Below are positions 15,326 through 37,129 of a stretch of 64,000 nucleotides of DNA, piece by piece. The notes beneath the pieces are model-generated. The model ran no database searches and had not been told where the DNA came from. It saw only the letters and a program-made list of their open reading frames with translations. The stretch comes from Trachythela sp. YZ-2020 (taxonomy: Eukaryota > Cnidaria > Anthozoa > Malacalcyonacea > Clavulariidae), in contig JADLSH010000193.1 of NCBI GenBank assembly GCA_016169945.1, positions 1,612,001 through 1,676,000 on the forward strand, read 5' to 3'. A program made the translations under genes and the position numbers. Position 1 is the stretch's first letter. Each line of letters begins with the position of its first letter.

Positions 15326-15964
15326 ATTTACGTAATATTCTGTACTTCGATAAAGTTTTAATTTAAAATAGTTGTTTATAAATACGATGAGCCAGCATGG
15401 CGACAGCGGTAATTTCAAACCCAGAGAGATGTACTTCATGAATTCTTCATGAAGAATCATTAGCGGGTTTCGGGGAGTATCAGACTAATTCCTGCAGATC
15501 TTGAAACAAGAAAAACGAATTCATACAGGGAAAATTCGAAGAAAAAAATTCGTACAGGGATTGTGTGGGGAAAAAATCTTAAAAGTTTAAGTTTTGTCTT
15601 TACTTTCGGACGAACATAGTTGGTATGAATCACGACATGTTGTCAAAATATGTATTAAACTTGTGTGATTCGTATCATGTAATTTTTTATACTTTTGTTA
15701 AGATTGCAATGACCAAAATATGGAAGGCTGGAATGTATTGTTCTTTCCAGTTTTTTACTTCATATACAGCTGACTTAAACAGCAATAAACAGGAATTTAT
15801 TTTCCTTGTTTCATGGGTACGTCTGTACACGCTTAAATCGAATTCGTATTTGGTCACCATATTTAAGATGATATGCTGAACAGAAGTTAGGGATTCTAAA
15901 ATACACTTCTGTTTTTTTGAATAACCATTTGTCCTGTCTATGAAGAACCACACTTGGTTTTTGC

Positions 15965-16080
15965 AAAATAAGAAATGTATAAAGAATCGGTTTTTTGGAT
16001 CCTATTATAATTGTTTTTTTGGAAATAAGAGAATGTATAAATAATCGGTTTTTTGGATCCTATTATATAAAACTCCTGAA
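15965..16080 (+). repeat. short direct repeat
   Basis: Two adjacent copies of about 55 bp share GAATGTATAAA-AATCGGTTTTTTGGATCCTATTAT (split here for length). The stretches on either side (15326-15964 and 16081-16500) show no gene. Confidence 0.7.
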
Positions 16081-16515
16081 ACAGTATGGACACGTGGTTT
16101 CCATCTTGCATTAATATGTATAACTGAACATTTGAAAATGTATTACAATCGTCTTCATGTCATTTCTATTATACAATGGTTCCATTTCTAAGGTTGTGAT
16201 TAACTCAGGACATCATGAAAAGTCCAGTGATGGTCGATTTGTCTTCGCCTTTCAAATAATTGAAGGGTTAAACAGCTGGCTTGTTTTTGCACTGCTGTGT
16301 AAAAATTGCATTTCTAAATTTCTAAATATTTGAAATTGCCTTTCTTGTTAGAGAAAAAAATTTTCATTCCGAGGGCAATTCTATATTGTAGTGTACCCGG
16401 TAGTGTATATTATAATGTCGCGTATTTTATAATTGATTAGAACTTTTAATATGTCATTGAGACGGAAACACGTTGTATTACGATCAGTTGTTTCAAATGT
16501 AAATATCTCCAGACG

Positions 16516-16560
16516 CTGCCTCGTACCCAGGCGCTCTCAGTTTGCGGCAGGCTATATAAG
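16516..16560 (+). mobile_element. solitary end of the CAGCCTCGTACC element family
   Basis: CTGCCTCGTACCCAGGCGCT at about 16518 matches the terminal repeat of the elements at 50011-51974 and 56049-56203. No matching second end was found nearby, so this looks like a fragment. The overlapping open frames at 16433-16868 have no recognised motif. Confidence 0.55.
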
Positions 16561-16915
16561 AGGAATACATGAAGTATTGCAACGGAGGCGACGCGCGACG
16601 GGGAATTTGGGAGGACTTCACGCGGGGGAGCGTGGGAGGACTTCACGCGGGGAAGCAGTTCTTGTATACTGTTATGGCGGACAAAATGATCGAGGAAGTA
16701 GAAATTTCTACAAATCCATTACAAAGACCAGTTCAGGTGGCTTTTTTACACCAAAAATTACTATGCCCTCATATATTCTGTGCGCAAAACGTTACGTTTT
16801 TTGAGGAGAGTGGAATTGAGTATAAGGTCAGTGTTACTTGCTATAAACCAATGAAATCCGCCATCTAGGCAATGACATCACGAGGAATCGATTGTCGGTA
16901 CTTTCAAGCCGATGG

Positions 16916-17106
16916 TAGACTTGCTCCAAGTCTGTCTCTTAAAAGGGTTTTATTGTGGAGTTATAAAGGATTGGGGAGTTATAAAGGGCGCATGAGAATG
17001 CGGGCGGGAGGAAATGAAAGCGGACAGGGGTGCCTTTTATAACTCCCCAATCCTTTACAACTCCCCAATAAAAACCCCTTTAAGAGACAGACTTGGAGCA
17101 AGTCTA
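16916..17106. mobile_element. 191-bp MITE, TAGACTTGC family, with 8-bp near-duplication
   Basis: TIRs begin TAGACTTGCTCCAAGTCTG and extend about 70 bp, through AAGGATTGGGGAGTT. The flanks GCCGATGG (16908-16915) and GCCGATAG (17107-17114) match at 7 of 8 bases. A second copy lies at 45469-45622. An 8-9 bp duplication points to a hAT- or Mutator-type non-autonomous element. Confidence 0.8.
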
Positions 17107-17114
17107 GCCGATAG

Positions 17115-17886
17115 AGTTTGATCCCGGAGATTTAGCTTCCGAAGTTGTCCGAGCGTGCGCCGACAATACCGGCTCTGCAACAAAGAAAGCATTTTCACGA
17201 GAATTGCCATAAAAGGGCTAGATTATTTCGTTTTCAATAGCTACCAATGGTGAAGGAAAGCGAAATGAATATTTAATTAGTTTATATTATTGTTAATTTG
17301 TAAACAAAACTCAGAGTGTTTAAAAGCGGCAAAATTGGCCGCATAGCGTTGTAAACAAACACAATTTACTTCTCTAGAGAGATCGTAAAACACTGAATCG
17401 AATGGTGGTATTGTCATCTACATAGCATGCACTGAACCTAAGATATGAACCTGCAAAATCTGAGGTCGATATCGACCTCAAAACATTAGGACTCAACAAT
17501 AAGCATTTTCTTGATTTAGAATGTTTTCATCCATTCCCACGTAATCCCTTTTCCACATTTACGACAACAACATTTATAAGAGTATTTTACAGTATATCGG
17601 GTTTTTTGTATGAAATCTTTCGCTATTATGAAATATTAGTTGAACACACAGTTGCCTGCGGAGGAGGCTAGGCGCATATTCCTATCTCCATGTATAATTA
17701 TAAAGCAAGGTCATGTCATTACAAATATATAATGAAAAAATTTGAATTATATCCAAAAATCATCTACTATTAAGAATTATTACATATACAGATTAGTCGC
17801 AGTAGATCACTGGTTATACTAAAACAATTTGAATACCTAACTATTCGCCATACGAATACTGAATCTTAAAGTATATACAAATTGAA
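17115..17886. other. intergenic, no gene seen
   Basis: No recognised coding, RNA or repeat structure. GAGGTCGATATCGACCTC at about 17461-17478 is a perfect 18-bp palindrome of unknown meaning. Confidence 0.45.
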
Positions 17887-18141
17887 ATGGCAATAAAACA
17901 ACATAGATTCGTCTTATCTTGGCACTTTAAACGCGTTTTTCTTTACACAGCATTGGCAGCACTCTTCAATTATCAGGCCGTCAATTGCCTAAATCAAGAT
18001 TTGGGGAACGATAAACTAAGTTATATACTTCTATACAACTCAAGATTTTATTTTGACCTGCGTCGAAGTGATGGATCAATTGAAAAGAAGCTAAACGAAA
18101 TTCTCGATATAAAAATCATGAATAAAAATCATGAATCATGA
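17887..18141 (+). CDS. possible small secreted protein or first exon, unrecognised
   Basis: An 84-codon frame. After a basic start (MAIKQHRFVLSWHFKR) comes a hydrophobic run, VFLYTALAALFNYQAVNC, that looks like a signal peptide with a cut after Cys or Ala near residue 33. The rest is a charged tail, LRRSDGSIEKKLNEILDIK. There are no family motifs. It could be a small secreted peptide, a first exon whose frame runs into an intron, or chance. The region before it is AT-rich with no clear TATA box at the right distance. Confidence 0.3.
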   Translation: MAIKQHRFVLSWHFKRVFLYTALAALFNYQAVNCLNQDLGNDKLSYILLYNSRFYFDLRRSDGSIEKKLNEILDIKIMNKNHES

Positions 18142-18681
18142 TAAAAAGCTACTGATTTTGTCCGGTTTTCGTGAATATATATAAAAGAAAATTTGGATGA
18201 AAACGCTTCTCTCCTTGAACCTTTGAAAGCAAAATATTAAAAAATATCGAACTTGGCGCGTTGATGTACTATAACACGTGATCCATTCCTAACGCGTTGA
18301 TTGGTGCAGAATGTTTCCACTTGTCGGGGGAAGCATTCTTCTCAACAGGTTCTCAGCAGGAAAAAATATCAATACAATCCAAAAATGTAAATAAAATCCT
18401 TTGAATGAGTATAACGAGAAAAGTACGTTGGCAATTCCTCGACAGACCCGGCTTCGATTAGACGATTACCGCTCGCGGTTGAACAGTAAAGAATGTATAA
18501 AGCCAATTTAATGCAGCATTCCCACTTGGCGACGTTACCGGAGCAAAGAACCTTCGTCAGCTAGTTAAATAGCAGGAACTCCTTGCTTCTTAAAAAATCA
18601 TTTGTACACTAGCAAATACCCTAACTAGCACTATAGCCCTAAGTGAAAGAATCTCACATAATGTTGGAGTTAAATTACTTT

Positions 18682-19008
18682 GCCCGCGGTAAAAATTCAG
18701 GAGTAAAATTACTCCCAATTTTTACTCCCGTTCGAGAATATTTGGAGTTAAAACGACTCCTGGAGTAATATTAAGGAGTAAAAATTACTCCATTATTTCT
18801 ACTCCTTTGCTGGAGTAAATTTTACTCCTTCAGTGGAGTTAAAATGACTCTCAGTGGAGTAAATTTTGGAATGCGTACCGAAATGGAGCAGTTTTATCTC
18901 CATTTTTGGAATAGATTAATTTACTCCAAAATTTTTACTCTCCCATAGGGAGTAATTTTAACTCCTATGGTGGAGTTAAAATAACTCCTTGAAATTAACC
19001 GTGCGGGC
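18682..19008. mobile_element. GGAGTAAA-rich MITE
   Basis: The ends GCCCGC(AC)GGTTAA are inverted (18682 and 19008). The interior is a chain of alternating GGAGTAAAATTACTCC and TGGAGTTAAAATGACTC motifs on both strands, so it can fold at many points. No coding capacity. Confidence 0.7.
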
Positions 19009-19077
19009 TATACTCCATTGTTCTCTGACAATACACAACATGTGTACATTGCGTAACGCTACAAAATACATTTCTTG

Positions 19078-19590
19078 AGCAGATGCCACAGAACTAACGC
19101 AATAAATCTAAGCCAAAGCTTTATGAATTATGTGTATAGCGTTTTGGTTTACACTGTAGTGTATCAGTATAATAAACACCGTATTTTATAATCGATTAGA
19201 ACTTTTAATATATATCATATGCATTGGTATATATTTTATCTAAAGGGAAACTGAGTGACATTAGTGAAAAACAATTTTTAAAAGAAAATGAGAACACTTC
19301 GCATTTTCAACACTCCGCATATTTTCAACACTCCGCATATATTCAACACGTCCGCATTTTCAACACTCCGCATTTTCAGTACTGTTTCGTTTCCTTTAAT
19401 CACATATTTTGTCTGTTTATACACTTGGTTTATAATTATTACGAACGAACAATATTTGTAAAAGGAAATCCTCTATAAGTGTATGTAAATGTAGGTGTCG
19501 CTCAAGAGTTCTTACTAATCCACTCTTACAATCTTTTTGATCAAGCCTTACTTTGTTCCCATAAACGGAGACAGCCATATAATTATACCT
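19078..19590 (+). repeat. local duplication, copy 1
   Basis: Begins at AGATGCCACAGAACTAACGC and ends near ACGGAGACAGCCAT. It contains an ATTTTCAACACTCCGCAT minisatellite (about 19302-19378). A second copy is at 20662-21300, and the central GTAGTGTA...ATCGATTAGAACTTTTAAT part also recurs at 16385-16455. Confidence 0.75.
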
Positions 19591-20661
19591 AAACCTATTT
19601 ATACTGGATAGCTTTGTCAGTTATAAACTGTTCTCCAAAGAGGTCTTTATAAGTATAGTAGGCTATTACAAATCCTGCGTTCTGATTGGTTCCCTAGTAG
19701 CGAAGAGCGAGAGAGAAACTTGTGAATCACTTGCTTCTTTACGAAAAAAAACTTCGCAAAATGTCCTAATTTCTATTCTGGAATAAAAACTAACAAACAA
19801 TCATGGAAACTGCGTACTCGTATATAGTTTTACAGTTTTGAACATAAAAGTGACTGGCAAATATATGAACATGGATCGTGGACAATTTTTGTTTATATTT
19901 CGAGCAACATCATTGGAAACACAATCGCTTGAAGTTGAATGTTTTCATCCATTTAGCTATAAAATTTGAAGGGTTTTTTTGCGTTAATTATATCAGTTTA
20001 TGTGTTTCGAGATTTCCCGCCATATTGTTTACAGTTTGAAAATATCTAACGTTTTGGCCTTTTTAAGCTTTTTTTCTTTCGTTTTATTAACCAAATATAA
20101 CTTGAAATTTTCCTTCGATATAATGGCTGTTTTAATTACGGTCTGATTTTTTTAATATTTAAACTCACAAGTCGTATATATTTAGTGAATTTTCACTCGG
20201 GCGTTCGCCGTTTTATATAAACAAGTGCCGGCGCGAAAGTTGAAAGAAGCCATCTAAATGCATGGATGCTCTTAAACTTTACCTATTTTATTCCTGCAGC
20301 TTGAAATATACTAGTAGGTTTATATACTAATACAATTAGACAACTCGGCCTCGTTGTCTAATTGAATACTGCAGGAGGACCTCTAAACTAAACTCACTTT
20401 ATAGTATATTTTTACTTTATTATTCCTACCAACGTAATAGCTCTATATCAGTTCTTATTGGTCTAGTGCTACTACAGGAGGAAACCTAAACTAGCTTTAT
20501 TTATACGGGTAAGCAGATTGCTCTAGATCAATATAGTATGCGCCAGGCGTCACTAACGCTCTTGCATCTGACAATACTAGCTAACACTATATACACTTGC
20601 CAAGCATGTATAAATTACCCAAAAAGGCTCTCCTGCAGAAGAAAGTTTAGTGACCTTGAGT

Positions 20662-21300
20662 AGATGCCACAGAACTAACGCAGTAAATCTAAGCCATTGC
20701 AAAGCTTTATGAATTATGTGTAGCGTTTTGGTTTAAACTTTAAACGTTATCCCCATGAGACGGAGTTATATACGCGGTTTGCATACTAAAATGGTTAAAA
20801 TTATTCATCCTGTATTGAGTTATTATATTGTAGTGTACACGGTAGTGTATAATAAACACCGTATTTTATAATCGATTATATTAGAACTTTTAATATATAT
20901 CATATGCATTGGTATATAGTTTATCTAAAGGGAAACTGAGTGACTTTAGTGAAAAACAAATTTTAAAAGAAAATGAGAACACTTCGTATTTTCAACACTC
21001 GGCATTTTCAGCACTCCGCATATATTCAACACTCCACCCTCCGGGCTCCGGCACTGCGCATATTCATTTCGATGTCCTTCAATAACATGTTTTGTCTGTT
21101 TATATTACGAACGAACAATATTTGTAAGAGGAAATCCTCTATATATAAGTGTATGTCTAGACTAGGTGTAGCTCAAGAGAAGAGTGGATGCTGGGACGCA
21201 ATTCGCGAGGGGAAAAACAAAACATATTAATCCACTCTTATATATAATCTTTTTGATCAAGTTTAATGCTTTTTTGTCTCCATAAACGGAGACAGCCATG
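20662..21300 (+). repeat. local duplication, copy 2
   Basis: Matches 19078-19590 with indels, including an extra block with GCGTTTTGGTTTAAAC and a longer spacer. The flanking stretches, 19600-20660 and 21300-21600, hold repeated phrases such as CTACAGGAGGAAACCTA and TACTGGATAGCT but no gene. Confidence 0.7.
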
Positions 21301-21714
21301 CCTAAACTCATCCAATTAACTTTATTTCAGTACTGGATAGCTTTGTCAGTTCTAAACTGTTCTCCATCAATAGAGGTTTAGTAAAGGCCATATTCTAATG
21401 GTCTAGTGTTACTACAGGAGGAAACCTAGACTAAACTACTTTAGTTAGACTGTATAGCTCTATCAGTTCTAAACTGGTTTCCCTAGAGGTCCAGTAAGAG
21501 TAAAAAACCTATTGAACTAAACTTACTCTGTTTATACTGGATAGCTCTTGCGAAGGCCATCTTTTAATTGTTGTATAAAATAGTATATATAGCTTAATCT
21601 TGTACTGAAGTTATATAAGGCCGAAACATGTATACAATTGAAACTTTTGTCGTATTCATTAAAGTTGTTATAATTTATTGCTAGCTTGCACGATTATTTG
21701 ATAAAACTATGCCG

Positions 21715-22070
21715 GGGTAAATATCTTTAAATACAGTTAGATTAACTTAATTATGAAACCCTATATTTAAACCTCTGCACTCGCTTAATCGAAATCTTTT
21801 GACATTGAATCTAAGATCCCCTGGAAGTCATTTGAAATAAAAATAATTATTTTTAATAAAACATCTAAAACCTCTTTGAAATGAAAAATATTGAAAACAG
21901 CAGGGAAGTGGCTTCGTGCCAAGGACAGTTCCGCTCTCCGGGACTCCGGCACTCTTTTGTGCATATTCATCTTGTAACTGCATGCAGTCTCCTAAGGGTT
22001 CAATAAGATACCTGAGGGCCGGGTATGGCCTCATTAGGATGTCAACACATCTCTCAAGGTTCTTGGCACA
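21715..22070 (-). repeat. fragment of the 39-57 kb module, partly inverted
   Basis: About 21715-21830 is the reverse complement of the module start at 39060-39210 (GATTTCGATTAAGCGAG... TTTACACCGG). About 22000-22045 matches the module in direct orientation (AATAAGATACCTGAGG and CCTCATTAGGATGTCAA). This ties the peptide-gene upstream region to the modules of the right half of the window. Confidence 0.65.
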
Positions 22071-22187
22071 ATAGAAAATCTTTATGTTAGGGGTGGACCA
22101 TTAGATACCCTGAGAGGATTCGGATTAGCTTGACACTTTTAAACTAAGATGCTCTTTCATCTTATTAGTTTGGCCATTTGCATATCG

Positions 22188-22194
22188 TATAAAA
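22188..22194 (+). promoter_or_regulatory. TATA box of peptide gene 1
   Basis: TATAAAA lies 51 bp before the start codon at 22245. Transcription would begin near 22218-22225, giving a 5' leader of only about 20-27 nt. The region from about 22130 to the ATG is strongly conserved with 57283-57400 upstream of gene 2, where the box reads CATAAAA. Confidence 0.6.
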
Positions 22195-22244
22195 GCGTGA
22201 GAAAACAGCCAAGCTAACCATAGGGATTCGAATCAGTCATCACG

Positions 22245-24621
22245 ATGAAGTGTTGGACAATTCTAGCCTTGCTGGTTACAGTCTGTGCTGTGTTTCTTGG
22301 TGTTGGACGCACTGAAGAAACCGCAGCGTATGATGATCTTGAAGAACCAGCTTTGGGGGATTCATCAAAGTTCAACGACGAAGAATTGTAAGCCATATTT
22401 ATTTTTTTCTTTAAATTTCACACCTATAACTCTTAATATAAAAATATGAAATTTCCTTCTCAGATTGGATATTCTTCTTTTTCTGCCATCAAATTGGTTA
22501 CAGAAATTTTTAATGTGAATAAGCAATTTGCGAGCTGTGAAGTTGCGAGTTATCGTATAAAAATACCAGATTTTCTCAAATTTCTTACCTCTATATACGT
22601 CAGTTTTTCCTAGGCATTTGTGAACTTTTCAACGTTGGTAGCTCTATGTAACAAGCCAAAGGTCAAAGCTTTAAACTAACATGCATTATAAAAGTTTTTG
22701 TTGTTGATTTGAATGTTCTCGTTCAGTCGTTGTAAAGATGTTTTAGTTTATTTAGGATTCAGTTTTGCCGCTTGTTTTCAAACCACCTTCCTGTATAGCG
22801 GCCATATAGAACACATACCTAATTTTATGAAAATTCTATTACTGCACATTTCATAAGCAATTCATGGGGGTCTGCCAGGACGACACCTTTTAGATTGACT
22901 GGAAATATAACCATGCCTTACCAGTAAAAGCAATCCATGACAATAATTTCTTAACTGAATCTATCTTTTCACATAAAATAGAAAATAGTTTACAACTGAG
23001 TAAACTGATAAGTGTCAAACCAAAATAGTTTCTACAACTTTAAACTCAATTTGGTGCCCTTTAAGCTCGATAGGACATTTACGTAAGTGACGTAAATTAA
23101 TTTCATGAAACTTTTAGTAGGTTATTTTATAAGTAAGAATTTATCACAACAAAGTTGTCACTACACATTTGTACTGTCAATCACTGCACAATTTCATTCT
23201 ATCACTGCACAAATTGGCTATCACTGAACGCTAAAATTAGGTATGATAAGGCACATCTGATTTTTAATTTGGGAAACTTCCAGCTCATAACTCGCACTAG
23301 CTCATAAGTTCAGAGCCCGCAATAAACTCATTATTTTTTAATATAATCGTGAAATTCCTTCTGTATATATGGTTACATGCAAACTGTTTGGACTAAAAAT
23401 GAAGATTTAAGATTTGGTTTCCAACCAGGATTAGTTATAGTGCCATTAATGTCCCAAGCTGTTGATATAAAACCATATTTATAAAAACACAATTCAAACA
23501 AAACATATTTTGTGGGAGAAGGGGTTCTGGGGTGTGAAGACTCATATTATGACAAACATCATCCCTACTCACGTCACACCCTAAGCTGAACTGATTGACT
23601 GAACTGAATGCTCTGAACATAAAGCAGAGCCTTGCCAGGGGTAGCCATTCCCTGACGACCCTGAACCAAGAAGCACTTGGACAGACCTTAACCTGACCAA
23701 GGGGAATGGAACCCCTATGGACAGTCCTTAATAACCTGACCCAGGGCGCTTGACCCATATGAGCAGTCCTTAACCTGACCAAGGGGAGATAAACCCCTAT
23801 ATGGACAGTCCTTAATTATATGGTATATGTGTGACGTATATTGAGTCTATGGACCTGAAGTTGACATTTTGGAGACTTCAACCCGAACCACAAATTTATG
23901 AACCAAAATAACAAAATAGTCTGTAACCGAAAACGTTGCTTTTAAACTATATACATATTAAGTAAAGGCATTGTCTAGCAGCGACATTGTTTGTGTCTCT
24001 TTCCAAAATGTCCTTTCTCGAGTCCTTGATCCAGTATATGGTGTTGAAGACAGTCGATGATAGCTGCTTCTATTTGAAAATAATAGCTGTTATTTCCATA
24101 ATATATTAACTACCAATATTCTATCGATGAATTAGCAATTTTGAACATTCAAGGTAACTCTAACTTAGAGCAAACGTCTAAATCTAGATGCATTACGGTT
24201 CCGGTTAAACCGTCCCCCAAATTGTATTGTTAAACGGCATGTAAAAATGATGGGTTCTATTAAATTTTCTCTTATGCAATCAGTTACATGCTTTAAATCG
24301 TAAAGACACAAATGACCCCTTGTTCGAAAGAGAAAACAACAAGTTTCGAAGTTAAACTGAATTTTGTTATTAGGAATAGTATTCTAAAAATTATTAAGCA
24401 TAAAAGATCATTTTATTCCGTCTTTTTATGCACCATGTAGATATGAAAATAGTGAAAACGGTGATGATGATGATGATGACAGTGTGAATGAAGACAAACC
24501 AGCTAAGTTCAGACGTTCATCATGGCGCCGTATCCCACGTCCCCGTTTCCCACGTCCCCGTTCATCATGGCGCCGTTTCCCACATCCCCGTATCCGACGT
24601 ATTCGTTCCGGCGGAAAATGA
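22245..24621 (+). CDS. Pro/Arg-rich cationic secreted peptide precursor, gene 1 (exons 22245-22387 and 24441-24621)
   Basis: Two exons join in phase 2 (donor GTAAGC at 22388, acceptor TGTAG ending 24440), giving 107 residues. Residues 1-21 ([21 protein letters not shown]) are a signal peptide. Residues 22-70 are acidic (DDLEEPALGD, GDDDDDDS). A basic site KFRR (70-73) precedes a tail with no acidic residue: [15 protein letters not shown], then SSWRRFPHPR, ending IRRIRSGGK and stop. The final GGK suggests basic trimming and amidation. Signal, acidic pro-part and cationic tail are the design of antimicrobial precursors such as Hydra arminins, and the PRPRFPRPR core resembles proline-rich antimicrobial peptides such as bactenecins. 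A neuropeptide is less likely because no cleavage or amidation sites separate the repeats. Function is inferred; the gene model is well supported by its paralog at 57401. Confidence 0.82.
22388..24440 (+). other. intron 1 of peptide gene 1
   Basis: A 2,053-nt intron with GT-AG ends. From 22887 onward it belongs to the 4.1-kb tandem duplication. It contains a degenerate minisatellite of GGACAGTCCTTAACCTGACC-type words at about 23690-23815. No other gene is seen in it; the minus-strand frame at 23435-23782 is covered by this repeat. Confidence 0.7.
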
Positions 24622-25056
24622 AGGTTGAAGACCTTATTTTTAACCTTTTCGTATATCACACACAAGTACTAAAGCCCTGATCAAACGAGACTCAAGTCCT
24701 TGCAAGTGTAAACTTCTGAGACATGGAAAAGAGGGAATGGGTGGTTTGAACAATTGCTCTGAAAACTAGGATTGGAGAGAGCATCCTTTTTGAATTCATT
24801 GAGCCAATTTTGAAGCCAGAATATTTATAATGGGAGAGATTTTTCAATCCATCAAATTTTTATTATATCCGAAATTGTTAAGTGTATAAATTAACTTTGC
24901 TATCAAGCAAATGTATTTTCCTATTTAGCTTGAAGGATATATTTTCCCACATGCACCTCTTCGGCTCTTCTAATGAGTTATAGAACGTTTTTAACACTAG
25001 ATAATGAGACTTGAAGCGCCATATTGGTGTGACCTCATTAGTTATATTCACTGCCA

Positions 25057-25062
25057 AATAAA
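25057..25062 (+). terminator. candidate poly(A) signal of gene 1, exon 2A transcript
   Basis: AATAAA about 435 bp after the stop, in a segment conserved in all three terminal-exon copies (29308-29313 and 59846-59851). Confidence 0.5.
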
Positions 25063-25663
25063 GAATTAGAAAGAGTGGGACCAATGTCTATCTATACAAT
25101 ACGTGTCCTTTCCCACCAACAACCAGAAAGTGTAAGAACCTCTTCTAACATGTCAGCACCATCAGTGTTGATTTGTTGTGCATGGTCACGCCAATATGAC
25201 TGCCATTGCAGGCTTCATTTATGCATAGCAGATGCACTATCCAGCCTAGTTTTTAATTCAGTAGTTTGATCCGTTTGAACAACACAAAGTGTAGAAAAGA
25301 GTCAATGTTTTAAAAATATACAGCGTTAAATATTCATGTTTAGCTGGGTATTACAAACACATCACATTAATCTCTTTTACAATGTGTATTCCAATTACGT
25401 GTTTATTTATCAAATTATTCATTCCATTTTTCCATACCTCAGGAGTTTTAAACTTGCGGTGGTTTGCGCTCTCGTTTGACCATAGCTTAACACTGGAGCA
25501 ATAAGAGGTAGCCTCATCTAAACCTTTACGGAAAACAATTAAGAACTGATAGAACTATTCGTGTTAAATAAAGTTAGATTAGTTATTAAGTTTCCTTCTG
25601 CAGTAACACTGGAGAAATAAGTGTTAGCCCTTTCTAAATCTTTAGAGAGAACAGTTTCGAACT

Positions 25664-26288
25664 AGCCTGAGACAGACGAATAACGAAAAATATTCGTCTG
25701 AGAACATTCGTCACTAATCTTGCCTGGTGACGTCAGAGCGTTAGTCGAGATTTAGATAACAGATTGTCATTGGTCACACTAAAATTGCATGTATTGTGCG
25801 TTTTTATTGGTTCATTAGACATGTCGGAAAAAATAAAAGATGGCGGAATTTACAGATCGAAATATTTTATGGAAACGTGCAATTAATACGGGATTAAATG
25901 TTTTCAAGTACCTTCTTTGTATAAAGAACAGGAAGAGGCCCTTGCTCAATTGTTTTCGAAGCGAGATGTTTTCATTAATCTCCCTACATCGTATGGGAAA
26001 TCGCTCATATTTCAAGTTGCACTCGATATTCTCTTTCGAAGAAGCACGGAACCAGCATAGTAGTGGTTATTTCTCCACTGAAAGCCCTCATGGAAGATCA
26101 AGTAAGATCACATGGTCGTTCGATACTTCGATAGTTCGATACAGTGTCGCTCATAGCAAACGCCATTTTGTTTTTCTCAGATACGTAATTATGCAAATAT
26201 TTATGATAAATTATGATAATTAGACCGGGCAAGATTAGTGACGAATGTTCTCAGACGAATATTTTTCGTTATTCGTCTGTCTCAGGCT
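25664..26288 (+). mobile_element. TIR element carrying a RecQ-helicase first-exon fragment, copy 1
   Basis: The TIRs AGCCTGAGACAGACGAATAA and their complement enclose 625 bp. The flanks repeat AGTTTCGAACT (7-11 bp depending on where the TIR is cut). The paralogous site at 60445-60455 holds AGTTTCGAACT once, with no insertion. Inside, from ATG 25840, is the start of a RecQ-like helicase, shifted out of frame by small indels in this copy. Confidence 0.85.
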
Positions 26289-26805
26289 AGTTTCGAACTG
26301 ATAGCTAATAAAGTATCCAGTGTAAATAGTGTTAGATTATATAGTTTATGCTCGCTAGAAGTCTTGTGGTAATAATGCTGGGCCACTAAAAATCACCTTT
26401 TCCGGACCTCTAAGTCTAGGTAGAACAGTTTAGACGCAACTGATTGAGCTATACGACTTAGGATAATTCGGGATAATTATATTTTTTTCACAGAATGAAT
26501 GACAAGCAAGCTGCACCGTGAGCCATGGCGTGGTGAAGAATGAAATATACTAACGTAATTACACTTTTTAATACTTTAATATTTTACCAAACATATCGTA
26601 ATTCAATGCATCATTAATTGCACATAACCGAAATTTGTAACTGGTTTCCTTGGTTAAATAAAAATAATGCTTAATTATACCATATTTGTGAAAACGATCC
26701 CACTTCGTTCCCAAACTGCTGTGAAGATAATCCAAATGTTAGACCATAAATAATAGAATACAGTACATGGTTTGTAGACTGGATGGAAATCGTTCGTGAC
26801 AGACT

Positions 26806-27030
26806 AGCTTGTAGCAAGCTTGTCAGCAAGTTGTAACAATGTTGTCATTTTATCAAACAAGTTGTTAAATAGCAGGACGATAACAAGTTGTTGGAACAGC
26901 TTGTAACAAGTCTGTTGAGTCAATAACATTGTAGTAAGTTGTCGACAAGCTGGGAAACTTGGGAACAAGCAGTGCGAACACATCCTGCTTGATAACAAGT
27001 TGTTTGAACAACATTGGTAAAAGTCTGCAG
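26806..27030. repeat. ACAAGTTGT-rich repeat, copy 1 (cut at duplication junction)
   Basis: A chain of diverged ACAAGTTGTT / AACAAGCTTG words on both strands. Full-length relatives lie at 31052-31290 and 60953-61200. Minus-strand frames across it are repeat by-products. Confidence 0.7.
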
Positions 27031-28586
27031 CTTTTAGATTGACTGGAAATATAACCATGCCTTACCAGTAAAAGCAATCCATGACAATAATTTCTTAACT
27101 GAATCTATCTTTTTCACATAAAAATAGAAAATAGTTTACAACTGAGTAAACTGATAAGTGTCAAACCAAAATAGTTTCTACAACTTTAAACTCAATTTGG
27201 TGCCCTTTAAGCTCGATAGGACATTTACGTAAGTGACGTAAATTAATTTCGCCGAAACTTTTAGTAGGTTATTTTATAAGTAAGAATTTATCACAACAAA
27301 GTTGTCACTACACATTTGTACTGTCAATCACTGCACAATTTCATTCTATCACTGCACAAATTGGCTATCACTGAACGCTAAAATTAGGTATGATAAGGCA
27401 CATCTGATTTTTAATTTGGCGGGAAACTTCCAGCTCGCAACTCGCACTAGCTCATAAGTTCAGAGCCCGCAATAAACTCATTATTTTTTAATATAATCGT
27501 GAAATTCCTTCTGTATATATGGTTACATGCAAACTGTTTGGACTAAAAATGAAGATTTAAGATTTGGTTTCCAACCAGGATTAGTTATAGTGCCATTAAT
27601 GTCCCAAGCTGTTGATATAAAACCATATTTATAAAAACACAATTCAAACAAAACATATTTTGTGGGAGAAGGGGTTCTGGGGTGTGAAGACTCATATTAT
27701 GACAAACATCATCCCTACTCACGTCACACCCTAAGCTGAACTGATTGACTGAACTGAATGCTCTGAACATAAAGCAGAGCCTTGCCAGGGGTGGCCATTC
27801 CCTGACGACCCTGAACCAAGAAGCACTTGGACAGACCTTAACCTGACCAAGGGAATGGAACCCTATGGACAGTCCTTAATAACCTGACCCAGGGCGCTTG
27901 ACCCATATGAGCAGTCCTTAACCTGACCAAGGAGATAAACCCCTATATGGACAGTCCTTAATTATATGGTATATGTGTTACATATATTGAGTCTATGGAC
28001 CTGAAGTTGACATTTTGGAGACTTCAACCTGAACCACAAATTTATGAACCAAAATAACAAAATAGTCTGTAACCGAAAACGTTGCTTTTAAACTATATAC
28101 ATATTAAGTAAAGGCATTGTCTAGCAGCGACATTGTTTGTGTCTCTTTCCAAAATGTCCTTTCTCGAGTCCTTGATCCAGTATATGGTGTTGAAGACAGT
28201 CGATGATAGCTGCTTCTATTTGAAAATAATAGCTGTTATTTCCATAATATATTAACTACCAATATTCTATCGATGAATTAGCAATTTTGAACATTCAAGG
28301 TAACTCTAACTTAGAGCAAACGTCTAAATCTAGATGCATTACGGTTCCGGTTAAACCGTCCCCCAAATTGTATTGTTAAACGGCATGTAAAAATGATGGG
28401 TTCTATTAAATTTTCTCTTATGCAATCAGTTACATGCTTTAAATCGTAAAGACACAAATGACCCCTTGTTCGAAAGAGAAAACAACAAGTTTCGAAGTTA
28501 AACTGAATTTTGTTATTAGGAATAGTATTCTAAAAATTATTAAGCATAAAAGATCATTTTATTCCGTCTTTTTATGCACCATGTAG

Positions 28587-28872
28587 ATATGAAAATAGTG
28601 AAAACGGTGATGATGATGATGATGACAGTGTGAATGAAGACAAACCAGCTAAGTTCAGACGTTCATCATGGCGCCGTTTTCCACGTCCCCGTTTGCCACG
28701 TCCCCGTTCATCATGGCGCCGTTTCCCACGTCCCCGTATCCCACGTCCCCGTTCATCATGGCGCCGTTTCCCACGTCCCCGTATCCCACGTCCCCGTTTC
28801 CCACGTCCCCGTTCATCATGGCGCCGTTTCCCACATCCCCGTATCCGACGTATTCGTTCCGGCGGAAAATGA
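28587..28872 (+). CDS. alternative terminal exon 2B of peptide gene 1, long repeat form
   Basis: The acceptor TGTAG ends at 28586, and the exon enters in the same phase as exon 2A. Joined to exon 1 (22245-22387) across a 6.2-kb intron, it gives a 142-residue precursor. It encodes the same acidic run and KFRR site, then four SSWRR modules instead of two: two SSWRR-xPRPR-xPRPR units, one with an extra FPRPR, and the closing SSWRRFPHPR unit with RIRSGGK. There is no signal-peptide exon between 24621 and 28587, so the exon can be used only by skipping 2A or after loss of function. Its 3' region has its own AATAAA at 29308. Frame, acceptor and stop are intact, which argues that it is usable. It could also be an allele placed in tandem by assembly error. 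Confidence 0.7.
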
Positions 28873-29307
28873 AGGTTGAAGACCTTATTTTTAACCTTTT
28901 CGTATATCACACACAAGTACTAAAGCCCTGATCAAACGAGACTCAAGTCCTTGCAAGTGTAAACTTCTGAGACATGGAAAAGAGGGAATGGGTGGTTTGA
29001 ACAATTGCTCTGAAAACTAGGATTGGAGAGAGCATCCTTTTTGAATTCATTGAGCCAATTTTGAAGCCAGAATATTTATAATGGGAGAGATTTTTCAATC
29101 CATCAAATTTTTATTATATCCGAAATTGTTAAGTGTATAAATTAACTTTGCTATCAAGCAAATGTATTTTCCTATTTAGCTTGAAGGATATATTTTCCCA
29201 CATGCACCTCTTCGGCTCTTCTAATGAGTTATAGAACGTTTTTAACACTAGATAATGAGACTTGAAGCGCCATATTGGTGTGACCTCATTAGTTATATTC
29301 ACTGCCA

Positions 29308-29313
29308 AATAAA
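29308..29313 (+). terminator. candidate poly(A) signal for exon 2B
   Basis: AATAAA in the same conserved 3' context as 25057 and 59846. Confidence 0.45.
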
Positions 29314-29910
29314 GAATTAGAAAGAGTGGGACCAATGTCTATCTATACAATACGTGTCCTTTCCCACCAACAACCAGAAAGTGTAAGAACCTCTTCTAAC
29401 ATGTCAGCACCATCAGTGTTGATTTGTTGTGCATGGTCACGCCAATATGACTGCCATTGCAGGCTTCATTTATGCATAGCAGATGCACTATCAGACTAGT
29501 TTTTAATTCAGTAGTTTGATCCGTTTGAACAACACAAAGTGTAGAAAAGAGTCAATGTTTTAAAAATATACAGCGTTAAATATTCATGTTTAGCTGGGTA
29601 TTACAAACACATCACATTAATCTCTTTTACAATGTGTATTCCAATTACGTGTTTATTTATCAAATTATTCATTCCATTTTCCATACCTCAGGAGTTTTAA
29701 ACTTGCGGTGGTTTGCGCTCTCGTTTGACCATAGCTTAACACTGGAGCAATAAGAGGTAGCCTCATCTAAACCTTTACGGAAAACAATTAAGAACTGATA
29801 GAACTATTCGTGTTAAATAAAGTTAGATTAGTTATTAAGTTTCCTTCTGCAGTAACACTGGAGAAATAAGTGTTAGCCCTTTCTAAATCTTTAGAGAACA
29901 GTTTCGAACT

Positions 29911-30536
29911 AGCCTGAGACAGACGAATAACGAAAATATTCGTCTGAGAACATTCGTCACTAATCTTGCCTGGTGACGTCAGAGCGTTAGTCGAGATTTA
30001 GATAACAGATTGTCATTGGTCACACTAAAATTGCATGTATTGTGCGTTTTTATTGGTTCATTAGACATGTCGGAAAAAATAAAAGATGGCGGAATTTACA
30101 GATCGAAATATTTTATGGAAACGTGCAATTAATAAGGTATTAAATGTTTTTCAAGTACCTTCTTTGTATAAAGAACAGGAAGAGGCCCTTGCTCAATTGT
30201 TTTCGAAGCGAGATGTTTTCATTAATCTCCCTACATCGTATGGGAAATCGCTCATATTTCAAGTTGCACTCGATATTCTCTTTCGAAGAAGCACGGGAAC
30301 CAGCATAGTAGTGGTTATTTCTCCACTGAAAGCCCTCATGGAAGATCAAGTAAGATCACATGGTCGTTCGATACTTCGATAGTTCGATACAGTGTCGCTC
30401 ATAGCAAACGCCATTTTGTTTTTCTCAGATACGTAATTATGCAAATATTTATGATAAATTATGATAATTAGACCGGGCAAGATTAGTGACGAATGTTCTC
30501 AGACGAATATTTTTCGTTATTCGTCTGTCTCAGGCT
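29911..30536 (+). mobile_element. TIR element carrying a RecQ-helicase first-exon fragment, copy 2
   Basis: The same insertion as 25664-26288, copied with the tandem unit. It is flanked by AGTTTCGAACT on both sides. Between TIR and gene fragment lies a promoter-like stretch with ATTGGTTC and an ATG in good context (AAAAGATGGCGG). Confidence 0.85.
30086..30382 (+). pseudogene. RecQ-like helicase N-terminal fragment
   Basis: 98 codons from the ATG. The helicase Q-type region (PSLYKEQEEALAQLFSKRD) is followed by motif I (Walker A, LPTSYGKSLIFQ, with GKS binding ATP phosphate) and motif Ia (VVISPLKALMEDQV). Homology stops right after EDQ, where the DNA reads CAAGTAAGATC, a good splice donor. The fragment therefore looks like one captured exon plus the start of its intron. 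The motor motifs II-VI are absent, so it cannot be a working helicase. The element has the layout of gene-capturing Pack-type transposons. The copy at 25840 has lost the frame. Confidence 0.8.
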
Positions 30537-31051
30537 AGTTTCGAACTGATAGCTAATAAAGTATCCAGTGTAAATAGTGTTAGATTATATAGTTTATGCT
30601 CGCTAGAAGTCTTGTGGTAATAATGCTGGGCCACTAAAAATCACCTTTTCCGGACCTCTAAGTCTAGGTAGAACAGTTTAGACGCAACTGATTGAGCTAT
30701 ACGACTTAGGATAATTCGGGATAATTATATTTTTTTCACAGAATGAATGACAAGCAAGCTGCACCGTGAGCCATGGCGTGGTGAAGAATGAAATATACTA
30801 ACGTAATTACACTTTTTAATACTTTAATATTTTACCAAACATATCGTAATTCAATGCATCATTAATTGCACATAACCGAAATTTGTAACTGGTTTCCTTG
30901 GTTAAATAAAAATAATGCTTAATTATACCATATTTGTGAAAACGATCCCACTTCGTTCCCAAACTGCTGTGAAGATAATCCAAATGTTAGACCATAAATA
31001 ATAGAATACAGTACATGGTTTGTAGACTGGATGGAAATCGTTCGTGACAGA

Positions 31052-31290
31052 CTAGCTTGTAGCAAGCTTGTCAGCAAGTTGTAACAATGTTGTCATTTTA
31101 TCAAACAAGTTGTTAAATAGCAGGACGATAACAAGTTGTTGGAACAGCTTGTAACAAGTCTGTTGAGTCAATAACATTGTAGTAAGTTGTCGACAAGCTG
31201 GGAAACTTGGGAACAAGCAGTGCGAACACATCCTGCTTGATAACAAGTTGTTTGAACAACATTGGTAAAAGTCTGCAGCAGGTTTGTTAA
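31052..31290. repeat. ACAAGTTGT-rich repeat, copy 2
   Basis: About 240 bp of diverged ACAAGTTGTTGGAACA / GCTTGTAACAAGTC words in both orientations, between GACTAGCTTGTAGCAAG and CAGCAGGTTTGTTAAAC. Confidence 0.7.
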
Positions 31291-32214
31291 ACTTGTGCGT
31301 TTTTACGTGTGTAGGTTTATGCAAACATTCGGTCTTGCATATTCGTCACGTGTGTATTGTATTTTTGCCCAATCAATAGCAATCTTTAAGTACAGTACAG
31401 TGCAGTACAAAGTATTTCAAACGAATCATATCTACATGTCAAGGTAGCGGACACAATTAACATAAAAGATTGCAAGAAAAACTGTTTTTGTTAGATAAAA
31501 ATAACTGCAGTAATTTGCTTTAGCACTAGCCTAGGATTAAGGTCAACATTAGGATTAGGTTTGATTATGGTAAGGGTTGAGATTATGGTCAGGAAACTGA
31601 GTTTAATGGTATTTTGATGACATGGAAATTGAGGCAATATATACAAAATGAAATCTTGGAGATGAGTACTCTGATATATGCTAAAGAAAAATATATTAAT
31701 TATTCTTATGTTTTTATATGACTTTAATATTGGATAGAATGTGAAACTATTTGAAACTATTGTATCTGATTCTAGTGTGATAAAAGAAATTGGCGCCTTA
31801 TAAACATTTGTTTCTCCGTTAAAGTACAATTATTCTGAAATTGGTTAATACTGAAGATGTTTAATGCTAGCTGAAAATGTTGTTCACGAAAATAGAAAAA
31901 CCTTCGGCTACGATTCTTGTTTTTTCATTCAGTTGTACTGTTAAATCTTCCGGATTAAAACGTACCATACATGTATACTATATACAAACAAGAACTGCAT
32001 GAAATAGCTATTGATCTGCAGTCTTAGTTGATCTACGTCTAAATAAGGACGAAAACGTACGTATATAGCCTCATTAATATCATTAACGAGACGAAACATG
32101 CGTAAAATCGCAGATTTCTATTGGTTGCTGCTGCTGAATTCATCTGCAAACGTGAAATACTGACTTCTAATTGGTTGTTATTTAAAGCTGCGTAATTTCT
32201 GCCTCGCCTCAGCG
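31291..32214. other. intergenic between peptide locus and Helitron, no gene seen
   Basis: The first ~230 bp match 61190-61480. The minus-strand frame at 31491-31829 has no recognised motif. Confidence 0.5.
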
Positions 32215-32516
32215 AGGCAGCACACTATTCTTGACGTGATAAGGTTTCTCCAGTGTTCACTTGCCCCAGTCTTTTACCCGACCTATATATTGTCTAGATT
32301 TGGATTTGGCGTCGGTTTGTTTATCGTAATCCGGGGGAATAAACAAGCTCGAAAACATTTGAAAAATGAGGGGGGGGGGGTATTCGAATAAGATTTCGTA
32401 TTGCGCGCCATGTTTTCCTCCATGTGCTCAAGATTTTACTCGAGATTTTTATAGCTACAAGCTTTTTATACTGGATGCGAATGATGCAAAATATTTTCTG
32501 AAAAATTCAGATAAGT

Positions 32517-33690
32517 ATGGCTATATTTCTTTCTGGTGATATACATCAAGGCGATGAACATTTTAGTGTTCATTCTAGAGGCAACCAATGTGCTTTCATG
32601 ACTTTATCGGCAATTTTAACAGCACGAAATACGCCATTGATCGAGTGGTCGAAATCAACAATATATAATGTCTTATTACAAGGAGACAAAATGTACTTAA
32701 AACTTTGAATAGTGGCTTAATAATCCTAGACCCAGGTGTCGAATTTTTATCTATTGATAACTTACCAAAGGTTGTTAGTGTTTCATGTTCAAACATGCTT
32801 TCTTACAAGATATGTTGGTCTGTGATCGACACAGTTAATATATCGCCTGTGCAGGGAAAAACAACCCCACCTATGACGGTGACAAATAGTGATCTAGCTG
32901 TAGTCATAGAGGCCGTTGAGGTACAGAATAACATTGATCTACATGTGATCGTGGAAAATAATAACATTGAACTACCTGTGGTGGTAGCACAAAATATCAA
33001 TCTACCTGTTGTGGTAGAGCCCATTGAGCACAAAATATTGATCTGCCCATTGTGGCGGAAAGAAACATTGATCTGCCCATTGTGGTGGAGCCCGTTGAGG
33101 CACAAAATATCATTGATCTGCCCATTGTGGTGGAGTCCATTGAGGCACAAAATATTATTGATCTGCCCATTGTGGTGGAGCCCGTTGAGGCACAAAATAT
33201 TATTGAACTTCCCATTGTGGTGGAGCCCGTTGAGGCACAAAATATCATTGATCTGCCCATTGTGGTGGAGCCCATTGAGGCACAAAATATTATTGATCTG
33301 CCCATTGTGGTGGAGCCCGTTGAGGCACAAAATATTATTGATCTGCCTATTGAGGCAGAAAATGAAAACCAAATTTGGTTGATAAATTACGGAAGAGATC
33401 TTCAAGGTCTTGTTATAACCAACCAAGAAATTGAGTCTCATTACTATGATATTCGCACAGCACTTTTGAATACTTTTTTGAATGACAGTTATGCTGGTTT
33501 AATATTAGAAGGTTATAGATGGCCTTATTAAAGCAAATGGATTCTTTCTATCTATTTGACTCACATGCCCGAGACTCTAATGGCATGCCTGATCCTAATG
33601 GCACTGCTTTTGTCATGAGATTTACTAATATCCTAGATTTAGAGCAATATTTGTATTCTCTTTCAATAGGACTGCATACCAATTTATTTG
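32517..33690 (+). pseudogene. C76-like cysteine protease domain with 45-bp coding repeat, Helitron-associated
   Basis: The first piece (32517-32708) contains HQGDEHFSVHSRGNQCAFM, with the catalytic Cys in RGNQC, and ends QGDKMYLKL. The next frame holds LDPGVEFLSIDNLP. Then follows a linker of six 15-residue units (NIIDLPIVVEPVEAQ, 45 bp each) at about 33060-33340. The last piece has FYLFDSHARDSNGMPDPNG with the Asp/His of the active site. The order Q-G-D, Cys, D-S-H fits the C76/OTU-like deubiquitinase group first defined in large DNA virus tegument proteins and also met in mobile elements. At least three frameshifts separate the parts, so the copy is dead. The family call is by motif only. 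Confidence 0.65.
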
Positions 33691-34990
33691 AAATTGTACC
33701 TGTTCAATTAAGTAGATGTAAAGCTTCTGAGCAAATAACTAAATCTGTAAAAGATCGAGAATACCAGAAAATGAGGTGTTCAGTGGAAACTAATGGTGAT
33801 AAACAAACTCGACTTAAAAAAGTCAATGAATGTAATAAAAGAAAGCTGTCAAAGGAAACTGACAGCGAGAGACAAATTAGACTTAAAAAAATAAGTGAGT
33901 CTAGAAAGAGAAAGCAGTCAATAGAAACTGAGAGCGAAAGACAAATACGACTTGAGAAAGCTAGACTTTATCAAAAACAAAAGCGGGCAAAAAGAGTGTC
34001 ACGACCTCAACAGGAAATAAGCCAACAGGATTATTTAAATATATTTGACATCATCAATAATGGTGTTATTGAAGAGCAATGTTGGGCAAAACATAACATT
34101 AATAAATTTCATAAATCTATGCAATATATTGTCAGTAAGTGTACTGTTTGTCAGGTGGCATGCCCTTGAAATCTAAACCAAGGTCACCGTATGTGTGTTT
34201 ACGATGCTCTAGAGATAAAAAATCTTCTAAACATTTTCGTGTGAAAATTCAATGATACCTTCATCTTTTCCACTCGAGTTACAAAATTTGGCTCAGATTG
34301 AGGAAATGTTAATTGCTCGTGCTTTGCCAATCATTAATTTACCACAAAATGTAACAGAACTTGCAACATCTTTGCCAAGATATCCTAAAGACTTGGCTGT
34401 GATTATTGTCAAAGTTAAAGGTGAAGACAACACATTTAGAGATGTGACAGTGCGAAAACTAAATGTGCACAATGCCTTGATGTGGCTTATACAGTAAACA
34501 ATAATCCACATTATCCTCAATTAATAATTAATGAAGATGCATTAAATTCATTACCTGAAAATGGTGTTCCATCAGATCTGATGACTGTTGAGACTGATAA
34601 TGATATAGTCTCAGATGATAATTCTTCTCCTGATTTGTGTCCTCCTACTGATAACCCCTCAGAGCATATTGTTTGTAATGACTCTACTGAAATGAGTATT
34701 TTCTTACCTGTTGGTGAACAACAACAGGAAATTGAAGCTGTTAGAAATCAGCTTTCTGAAAATGAGCGAATGCAATGGCCCTCAGTTGAAAATGAACCAT
34801 TAAATGAGTATCAGATATCACATCTGGCCACAATGGCTTTCCATACATTATTTCCAGACGGAAAAAGTGATCCTACTAATCAAGGACTTCTAACAGATGT
34901 CCCTCTTCAGGAACGAATAAAGCATCTTTTAAAATTTACTGAAATTACTGATGGTAAATGGGTCTACCGTTTTGCCAACCATCTCAGTTT
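33690..34990 (+). pseudogene. Helitron replicase N-terminal region, broken
   Basis: The parts appear in order. First is a basic stretch with three ETxSERQIRLKK-type units (about 33790-33990). Then comes a zinc-like region spelled over a frame break near 34168: CTVCQVACP, and in the next frame CLRCSRDKKSS. After that are the [20 protein letters not shown] motif (34261-34326), with an apparent deletion just after it, and [16 protein letters not shown]. The last part, from 34482, has AFHTLFPDGKSDPT and KWVYRFANHLS, the start of the Helitron-like N-terminal domain. The protein is cut at 34990 by the inserted element. Expected downstream Rep catalytic motifs are missing. Confidence 0.75.
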
Positions 34991-36130
34991 GGGGTGTGAC
35001 TAAATGGAGAGTTAAAATTGGAGTGTTAAATCGGAGAGTTAAGATTTCGGAGAGTTAAGTTCGAGCCACGCCCACATTTGTGAACGACCACACCCACTTT
35101 CTTAACTCTCCCGATGGTATATTTGACGTTAAACGTCAGAGACTTAATTTTGATTTAACTCTATTGCTTAACAAAATAGAAAGGAAGAGAGAGTTAACTT
35201 TGTCGTAACTCTCAAAATGCCAAAAAATGCTAAGCGAGAGAGTTAAGTTAGTTTTTCGAATAAAATGGTGATATTGATGTGACAATAGTGATAAAATACT
35301 AATAGGCAACATCCGAGTCAAACAAAGAGAGCATAGTATATATAAACAATTTCGCTACCCATTAATCTTTGCAGACCGCCCGTAAAGATTTTTGCCACAT
35401 TTCTCCACAGACATATATAATAGTCATACTCATAGACTCATAGATATAGTACCATACTGTCACTGTCACACGGGCATTGCCGCAAATAAAACATGTCAAA
35501 GTAAAACTTGCTCAAGTTTAACTGCTTTGTTTGACTTTGCGGAAGAATGTGAGAGCCGGCACTGCCACAGGCACATGAAACTTGACAATAACTTGTGCAT
35601 AGTCATACTCATAGTCATAGAATATAACAGATGTATATCACAACCGTATATAATAACCGACTATACTATAGAAGCCCTTCCAGTGCGACAACGCAAATAA
35701 TTTAGGACATATTGCCTAACGGACATTCAAAAATAGGCAATATTTTAATTACGAAAATATAAGCCAGAAGGTATGCCTCGTAGTTAGATAAGTTATGTGT
35801 CGTCGTTAGATAAGTTATGACAATTATGAATCTTTTGTGATCATCCTGACAAGATATCCGGTATGGGACACCATTTTATTCGAAAAATTAACTTAACCCT
35901 CTCGCTTAACCCTTTGGCATTTTGAGAGTTACGACAAAGTTAACTCTCTCTTCCTTTTTATTTTTTTAAGCAATAGAGTTAAATCAAAATTAACTCTCTG
36001 ACGTTAGTTCAAATATACCATCGGGAGAGTTAAGAAAGTGGGCGTGGTCGTTCACAAAAGTGGGCGTGGCTCGAACTTAACTCTCCGAAATCTTAACTCT
36101 CCAATTTTAACTCTCCTTTTAGTCGTTCCC
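34991..36130. mobile_element. 1.14-kb TIR element inserted in the Helitron, 8-bp target duplication
   Basis: The arms begin GGGGTGTGACTAAATGGAG (left) and end with the near-complement at 36130. They match over about 280 bp through GAGAGTTAAGTTCGAGCCACG and the CTTAACTCTC repeats. The flanks are CTCAGTTT at 34983-34990 and 36131-36138. An 8-bp duplication fits a hAT-type element. The 102-codon frame at 35392-35700 has no recognised transposase motif, so it is probably non-autonomous. Confidence 0.85.
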
Positions 36131-36138
36131 CTCAGTTT

Positions 36139-37129
36139 GCTACAACATACAAAGTTGTTGACAATGAACTGACAAAATTGCCAGAGAATATTATCCCCGA
36201 GCCGGCGCGAAGCGCCGTGCGAGGGTACTAATTCCGCTCGGAGATTTACACCCGGATATGTGAAAACATTGTGGAATGCAAAGTCGTCCGCCATTTTTTT
36301 TTGTCATGGACTGGACTGGACGTTTTCGTAAGTTATGCGCATGCGCAAGTTCAAGCCGAGAGAAGACTTCCATTTTGCAAACTTTTTTCAAAATTAGTTT
36401 TGCACTCATTTTATAAGTAAGTCTCTATGTCTCCAAAACAAGATAAATGAAAATTATTTAGAGGACAAATTAACAAGAGGAGAAACAGTCGAAAGACCGA
36501 AAAAGGAGCGTTTTAAACAGGCAAGTGTCTATTTTCCATGCTTGCTTTGCCGATTTTTTAACATAGCATGCAGTATAGTTTGTGAATTTGAAAATGTGTA
36601 GATCATTCTGTGTGGTCAATACAACATTGATTGATCTAATGATCTTTAAAAGTATTTTAGTATTGATTCAAATATTTAATAGAAAAATAAAAAAATGCAA
36701 GCAAGTGCAGAAGTATAAAAATACTCCTCGAAAAGCAGTTTGTGAATTTGAAAATTTCGAAACGTTTTGTGAACGTCTAAAGTTGAATGTTACAGTAAAA
36801 CAAAGCTAAAAGAATACACAATAGCATACCCACTTTATATAGTTGGACAATTGATAATTTTATAGTTAAAAACAAAATAAGATTTTGTACAAATTAAAAT
36901 ATAAAAAATATACAATGTTGCGTGTTACCATGGTTACATTCGTCGACTCAGTACTTCATGTTACAATAACTTCTTGGGAGTAAATTGTTTCGTTCAAACT
37001 TAACTATGGTTCAAATGGACGAGGGGTTACTGCATGCATGTATTTCTAGTACCAAGAATATTCCCAACATCCCAAAGGTCCAAATTTTGGCCTATATTGT
37101 AAATATCAACTTTTAAGGTATAAACCCTG
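36139..37129. other. Helitron interior lost or replaced; no gene seen
   Basis: Between the insertion and the next Helitron match no coding motif is recognised. GAGCCGGCGCGAAGCGCCG near 36199-36217 is GC-rich and palindromic. AGTTTGTGAATTTGAAAAT occurs at 36577 and 36738. Confidence 0.5.

Follow-up and report, generated by a model that had tools for sequence, protein, structure and literature searches.

Duplicated terminal exons behind a single signal-peptide exon in a proline/arginine-rich peptide gene of the octocoral Trachythela

The window considered here is a stretch of 64,000 nucleotides from the octocoral Trachythela sp. YZ-2020 (assembly GCA_016169945.1, contig JADLSH010000193.1, positions 1,612,001 to 1,676,000 of the forward strand). 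It contains a gene, R1, that belongs to a family of cationic peptide precursors, and the terminal coding exon of this gene is, in the assembly, duplicated behind a single signal-peptide exon. We refer to the two terminal exons as 2A and 2B, and to the corresponding versions of the gene as R1A and R1B. Positions are those of the window unless a contig is named; C73 is the contig of the window itself, and names such as C354 and C346_927 are short names given in this analysis to family loci. The features of R1 are as follows:

22188..22194, forward strand: TATA-like element, 51-57 bp before the ATG, read by eye
22245..22387, forward strand: exon 1, with start codon, signal peptide and the beginning of the acidic pro-part; ends in phase 2
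22887..27030, forward strand: tandem unit 1 (U1), 4144 bp
24441..24621, forward strand: exon 2A, a fused exon 2+3 with two SSWRR modules, short peptide
25057..25062, forward strand: AATAAA behind exon 2A, at +436 from the stop
27031..31278, forward strand: tandem unit 2 (U2), 4248 bp, without an exon 1
28587..28872, forward strand: exon 2B, a fused exon 2+3 with four SSWRR modules, long peptide, that of copy L1
29308..29313, forward strand: AATAAA behind exon 2B, at +436 from the stop

Exon 1 comprises 143 nt (47 codons plus two nucleotides) and ends in phase 2, as an earlier note on this DNA had described it; GTAAGCC follows. That note also held that 2A and 2B share one acceptor and phase and have intact frames and polyadenylation signals of their own, and this is borne out. 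The 135 bp at 24381-24515 and at 28527-28661, which run across the two acceptors, are identical; the acceptors agree letter for letter, and the near one (2A) has no visible weakness. The predicted splices join exon 1 to 2A as a product of 107 amino acids and to 2B as one of 142, and the module counts of two and four are correct in these joined products. The AATAAA lies at the same +436 in L1, a single-copy relative of R1, and at +441 in R2, the second family gene of the window. Compatible phase, acceptor and polyadenylation signal, the marks of alternative last exons, are present at both terminal exons of R1.

The duplication broke inside intron 1, and 2B lacks an exon 1 of its own, again as had been claimed. 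Unit 1 starts 500 bp into the intron, and the two units meet at 27030/27031 with about 1 bp shared. The best match to exon 1 inside unit 2 is 29 bp long, 79% identical and on the minus strand (E 0.07), which rules out a hidden exon 1 ahead of 2B. Two aligned stretches of the units, 1723 and 2506 bp long, are 98.6% and 99.6% alike, far beyond chance; the alignment gives 15 substitutions, of which at least four resemble misplaced homopolymer gaps. Unit 1 also contains, at 25656-26297, an element whose terminal inverted repeats, 74 bp long and 97% alike, enclose what reads as the beginning of a DEAD-box helicase. Its unit 2 counterpart holds an open frame at 30083-30382 (Pfam DEAD, 2.5e-11), the frame in unit 1 being broken, and the element resembles a small DNA transposon that has captured part of a gene.

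The earlier note's 'exon 2' had the right coordinates and phases but is not a typical single exon: it is a fusion of the family's exons 2 and 3. Of 19 further loci of the same type, 18 have three exons and one, the pseudogene-like C384_4310, does not. Exon 2 measures 63-120 bp in these genes, a multiple of three at all 18 loci, and divides the acidic part with exon 3; intron 2 measures 352-558 bp (17 loci measured). R2 has this usual structure:

57401..57543, forward strand: exon 1 of R2
58534..58596, forward strand: exon 2 of R2, not fused to exon 3, as is usual in the family
59114..59405, forward strand: exon 3 of R2, encoding an (FPRPR)n peptide with an FRFGK end

In R1A, R1B and L1 exon 2 is not separate from exon 3: its GAT run passes directly into the GACAGTG of exon 3. 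We rejected the idea that the structure of R1 is typical of its family. Compared with C354, R1 and L1 lack about 546 bp, a stretch that in C354 runs from the last part of exon 2 through intron 2 into the first part of exon 3; the break shows a GA (2 bp) microhomology. Because the missing stretch takes in exon ends as well as the intron, this is an in-frame genomic deletion and not clean intron loss. The fusion predates the separation of R1 and L1.

L1 belongs to a larger relationship between the window and the start of its contig:

10533..61070, forward strand: region with piecewise matches (88-99.7%) to C73:1-47997 of the same contig, where the homology stops

Most of these pieces exceed 97%, the first being 88.0% and the last 92.5% alike, and the homology ends abruptly at C73:47997 and window 61070. 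L1, the copy of R1 in this 48-kb stretch, has a single unit (12776-17033) with a single terminal exon, and its peptide is identical to the product of exon 1 and 2B. Present in both U2 and L1, and missing from U1, are 105 bp; because L1 has the 2B form, the difference is read as more probably a loss in 2A than a gain in 2B, and the four-module form is probably the older. U1, U2 and L1 are nearly equidistant from one another. Single-base patterns unite U2 with the L copy at 6 sites, U1 with L at 9 (four resembling misplaced homopolymer gaps) and U1 with U2 at 2. The simplest order would be duplication of a four-module exon followed by the loss in the near copy, and the data fit more than one timing of the tandem duplication relative to the split between the L and R copies. 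We rejected the 48-kb pair as plain alleles: homology stops at C73:47997, and the exon-1 matches scored include none past 1669401 that would pair with the genes at C73:74178 and 121221. A chimeric contig is a possible source of the pair. Within the matched stretch, a second tandem copy (53612-54418 and 54417-55215, about 0.8 kb, 99%) lies inside a 9/27-bp TGGTTCACT minisatellite and has one unit in the 48-kb copy. Several related blocks, 85-97% alike, occupy 38992-57193, with TGGTTCACT arrays at 39750-40333, 46463-47237, 53176-54086 and 54416-54885.

The family is dispersed in the 578-Mb genome. Exon 1 of R1 has at least 40 matches there (best 40 of 74 candidates scored), and its 3' untranslated region (3'UTR) has 20 strong ones (E <= 1.4e-65; best 40 of 856 candidates scored), two of them within R1; the weaker 3'UTR matches lie mainly over a dispersed repeat. 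These strong matches define 20 terminal-exon sets. Eighteen have a match to an exon 1 of their own, only partial by blastn for C384_4310, C181_137 and C155, and two have none: 2B of R1 and the far set of a locus in C384. A further group (C30, C231, C122 and C191) was sampled through three matches, in which we recognize by eye exons 2 and 3 (C231_164), exon 2 with the start of exon 3 (C231_167) and exon 3 only (C30_4313). In C73_121k the frame of exon 1 is shifted, and the pseudogene-like C384_4310 is missing exon 2 together with the first part of exon 3. L007 and L008 (C384:4199866, plus strand, and 4191507, minus strand) lie in opposite orientation about 8 kb apart and encode identical precursors.

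Among named proteins the closest come from the octocoral Paramuricea clavata, all of them hypothetical. A profile search with the 8000 best candidates scored gave four P. clavata proteins (P0002, P0003, P0005 and P0007) and four others at E <= 1.2e-8. An alignment of 11 precursors displays a conserved signal of the MKxWTILALL type, an acidic middle, DSV(N/K)E, KR or RR, and then a very variable cationic part; R1 has all the elements of this octocoral precursor, from signal and acidic pro-part through DSV(N/K)E and KR/RR to the cationic C-terminal part. Two database homologues, P0004 and P0006, cover the signal, acidic and cationic parts on contigs of only 705 and 1040 bp, a size that suggests spliced cDNA. 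P0007 has the same signal and acidic part with a histidine/arginine-rich end; the cationic part therefore changes in composition, and not in length alone. Elsewhere in the window, a 45-bp tandem repeat at 33067-33352 (6.4 copies, 94% alike) has an open frame and no convincing family match; an Rfam gathering search gave no matches, and ARAGORN with the bacterial code gave no genes.

The layout of the precursors is that of a signal peptide, an acidic stretch, KR or RR, Cys-free Pro/Arg repeats and, mostly, a GK or GR end, which is an amidation signal. All 18 exon 3s that were read carry KR before the peptide, with RR in its place in R1 and L1, and 18 of 21 terminal open reading frames (ORFs) end in GK or GR (exceptions C73_74k, C346_899 and C181_106). 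Removal of the signal, cleavage after KR/RR and amidation at GK/GR would be expected from established precursor processing. Besides the modules of R1, arrays of (FPRPR)n, (VPRFR)n, (IRLPR)n with (IPRYR)n, and (WPRIPRPR)n occur at other loci. Composition was computed for 16 peptides, leaving out C384_4191 (identical to 4199), C346_899, C181_106, C73_121k and C384_4310. These contain 8-37% Pro and 28-44% Arg, with a PRP motif in 5 of the 16 and charges of +9 to +44. The R1 peptides, with 18-23% Pro, 35-38% Arg and 2 and 7 PRP motifs, have the composition of proline-rich antimicrobial peptides (PrAMPs), and from charge, Pro/Arg content and layout the family peptides are likely to be antimicrobial, acting in defence. 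The arrays at 28660-28851 and 59175-59389 are open in more than one frame (in 2B, HVPVSHVPV and TSPFPTSPF), and one stretch of the L2 array reads like a frame shift compensated inside the array. Among 11 family members, Pfam returned six families, each through one member (best Cornifin, 8.8e-10), which we take as low complexity; solved structures gave no match to the R2 peptide at E <= 10.

The layout of R1 recurs in C384. There, an exon 1 at 4258307-4258449 is followed by a unit with exons 2 and 3 (4259077-4261033) that is repeated on the same strand at 4278279-4280391. Two intact sets, both open, thus lie about 19 kb apart behind one exon 1, and the copy again begins inside intron 1. No other exon 1 was found in the 23,200 bp read (C384 4258201-4281400), the next best match being 21 bp (E 0.11). 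The sets differ at 38 of 1662 aligned noncoding sites, at 0 of 90 sites of exon 2 (plus a 9-bp gap) and at 12 of 169 sites of exon 3. The excess in exon 3 over noncoding sequence (Fisher p 0.0014) means that the peptide part changed faster than the introns. Freedom from frameshifts over so short a stretch is weak evidence of use.

How these exons are used is a matter of interpretation, and the account we prefer, with moderate confidence, is the following. As the assembly shows, an in-frame loss of about 546 bp fused exons 2 and 3 in the ancestry common to R1 and L1, and the fused exon, single in L1, is double in R1 through a tandem duplication from inside intron 1. The exon that was duplicated would have had four modules, the near copy later losing 105 bp. 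Transcription would run through exon 1 and the 2-kb intron to 2A and end past the AATAAA at 25057. Removal of the signal peptide, cleavage at KR/RR and amidation at GK/GR would release a cationic defence peptide, short from R1 and long from L1, with 2B spliced seldom or never. To reach 2B, a transcript must pass the signal at 25057 and skip an acceptor identical to that of 2B, and no feature of the sequence favours this; the short peptide is therefore likely to be the main product, with 2A the likeliest default of exon 1 splicing.

Several points weigh against this account. The expectation that the near exon wins is a general one rather than a result. In C384 the frames of the far set have stayed intact through about 2% of noncoding divergence, a possible sign that such sets are used. 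Exon 1 gives a pooled pN/pS of 0.94 among 12 distinct sequences of 16 compared (signal 0.75, pro-part 1.09), and this is no clear purifying selection. The multiples of three in exon 2 could be explained by (GAT)n slippage alone. The antimicrobial role is drawn from composition and layout, and the 107-aa R1 precursor has no match in Pfam, so that no family model fits it.

The alternative that survives best is that 2A and 2B serve as alternative last exons, a single promoter with its exon 1 yielding a two-module or a four-module peptide. This is possible, and we entertain it tentatively. Phase, acceptor, frame and AATAAA are intact at both exons, and C384 presents the same layout with both sets open, but units as alike as U1 and U2 would keep intact frames whether used or not, the long peptide is already encoded by L1, and all but two of the 20 terminal sets come with an exon 1 of their own. 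The earlier note had seen in the duplication a possible way to diversify a defence peptide. The layout stands and recurs at C384; against a device for diversity speak these last two counts and the fact that separate genes, together with alterations to the repeat array inside the last exon, account for most of the variety in the family. A broader form of the idea, that the family has more than once added terminal-exon cassettes downstream of a single promoter and signal exon, through intron-1 breaks at two independent loci, and chooses among them by alternative last-exon use, we regard as doubtful. If it were true, cassette choice would let one regulated gene give peptides of differing array length and sequence.

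That there is no real tandem copy, the units being allelic or R1 having been misjoined with the L1 region in assembly, is unlikely. The near-equal distances among U1, U2 and L1 would fit such a fault, as would the homopolymer lengths that account for several unit differences, the second tandem copy that is likewise single in C73:1-48000, and the start of the contig inside the 48-kb copy; but a junction sharing about 1 bp is not what an overlap-based join would produce, the window is without N, C384 carries a more diverged (older) case of the same layout, and the L/R homology stops abruptly, unlike that of plain alleles. Weakest, and improbable in our judgement, is the view that the peptides are neuropeptide-like signals instead of antimicrobials: the C-terminal GK/GR is common, and the FRFGK ends of R2, L2 and C354 would give an RFamide, but there is one terminal G per precursor where neuropeptides are expected in many copies, the ends vary among loci (RFGK, GWGR, RWGR, RLGR, LPWGR and GGK), and the charges are as high as given above.

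An octocoral family of amidated Pro/Arg repeat peptides would extend the proline-rich class of antimicrobial peptides (AMPs), and the changes in array between near-identical copies make fast change of peptide length measurable. The duplicated terminal exons offer a checkable case of a peptide gene possibly gaining a second product without a second promoter. We expect the peptide family itself to be the more lasting find than the exon layout, the inference of alternative use being plausible and joined by a second example.

PrAMPs, bactenecins and apidaecins among them, kill bacteria by a non-lytic route, for example by blocking protein synthesis. Like them, members of the R1 family have a secreted precursor, an amidation signal and a peptide that is rich in Pro and Arg and lacks Cys; a PRP motif occurs in 5 of the 16 peptides computed. 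They differ in their long perfect five-residue arrays and acidic pro-part, in the lack of matches of R1 to Pfam and of the R2 peptide to solved chains, and in being predicted from sequence. An amidated, Pro/Arg-rich PrAMP is described from crayfish, astacidin 2 (available text of PMC11767717). No proline-rich AMP from Cnidaria is named in the available text of three reviews (PMC11678341, PMC11767717 and PMC12466427), which is no proof of absence in print; in PMC11678341 the words 'cnidaria' and 'coral' occur 0 times each. Nor did we recognize, among literature titles, a publication describing the R1 peptide family.

The myticalins of Mytilus, as portrayed in the accessible portion of PMC12294457, resemble the R1 family in being multigene, linear, Cys-free AMPs with three exons, clustered copies and pseudogenes. 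Compared by description, myticalin exon 1 is 5'UTR only and the coding intron is in phase 1, whereas exon 1 of the R1 family is coding and its introns are in phase 2. Among Cnidaria there are the arminins and periculins of Hydra, which according to the available sections of PMC10945409 and PMC11767717 are likewise lineage-restricted cnidarian AMP families with clustered paralogues; periculin-1, with its anionic N-terminal and cationic C-terminal regions, resembles the R1 precursors. The same sections describe arminins as alpha-helical and periculin-1 as having eight Cys, in contrast to the Cys-free Pro/Arg repeats of R1. No Hydra protein is among the profile-search matches listed, and no search with an arminin sequence was made.

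For the exon layout, a parallel lies in pipid frogs, where, in the available part of PMC3731216, cpf-St4 and cpf-St5 have a terminal exon in common and Xenopus has repeated peptide exons. As in R1, exons have been duplicated, and 5' exons can take the terminal exon of another unit, as exon 1 of R1 might. The upstream frog gene has no terminal exon of its own, and its splice is proven by expressed sequence tags, whereas exon 1 of R1 has a near terminal exon and is known from genome sequence. The frog case nevertheless establishes that AMP genes do join to a neighbour's terminal exon (PMC3731216).

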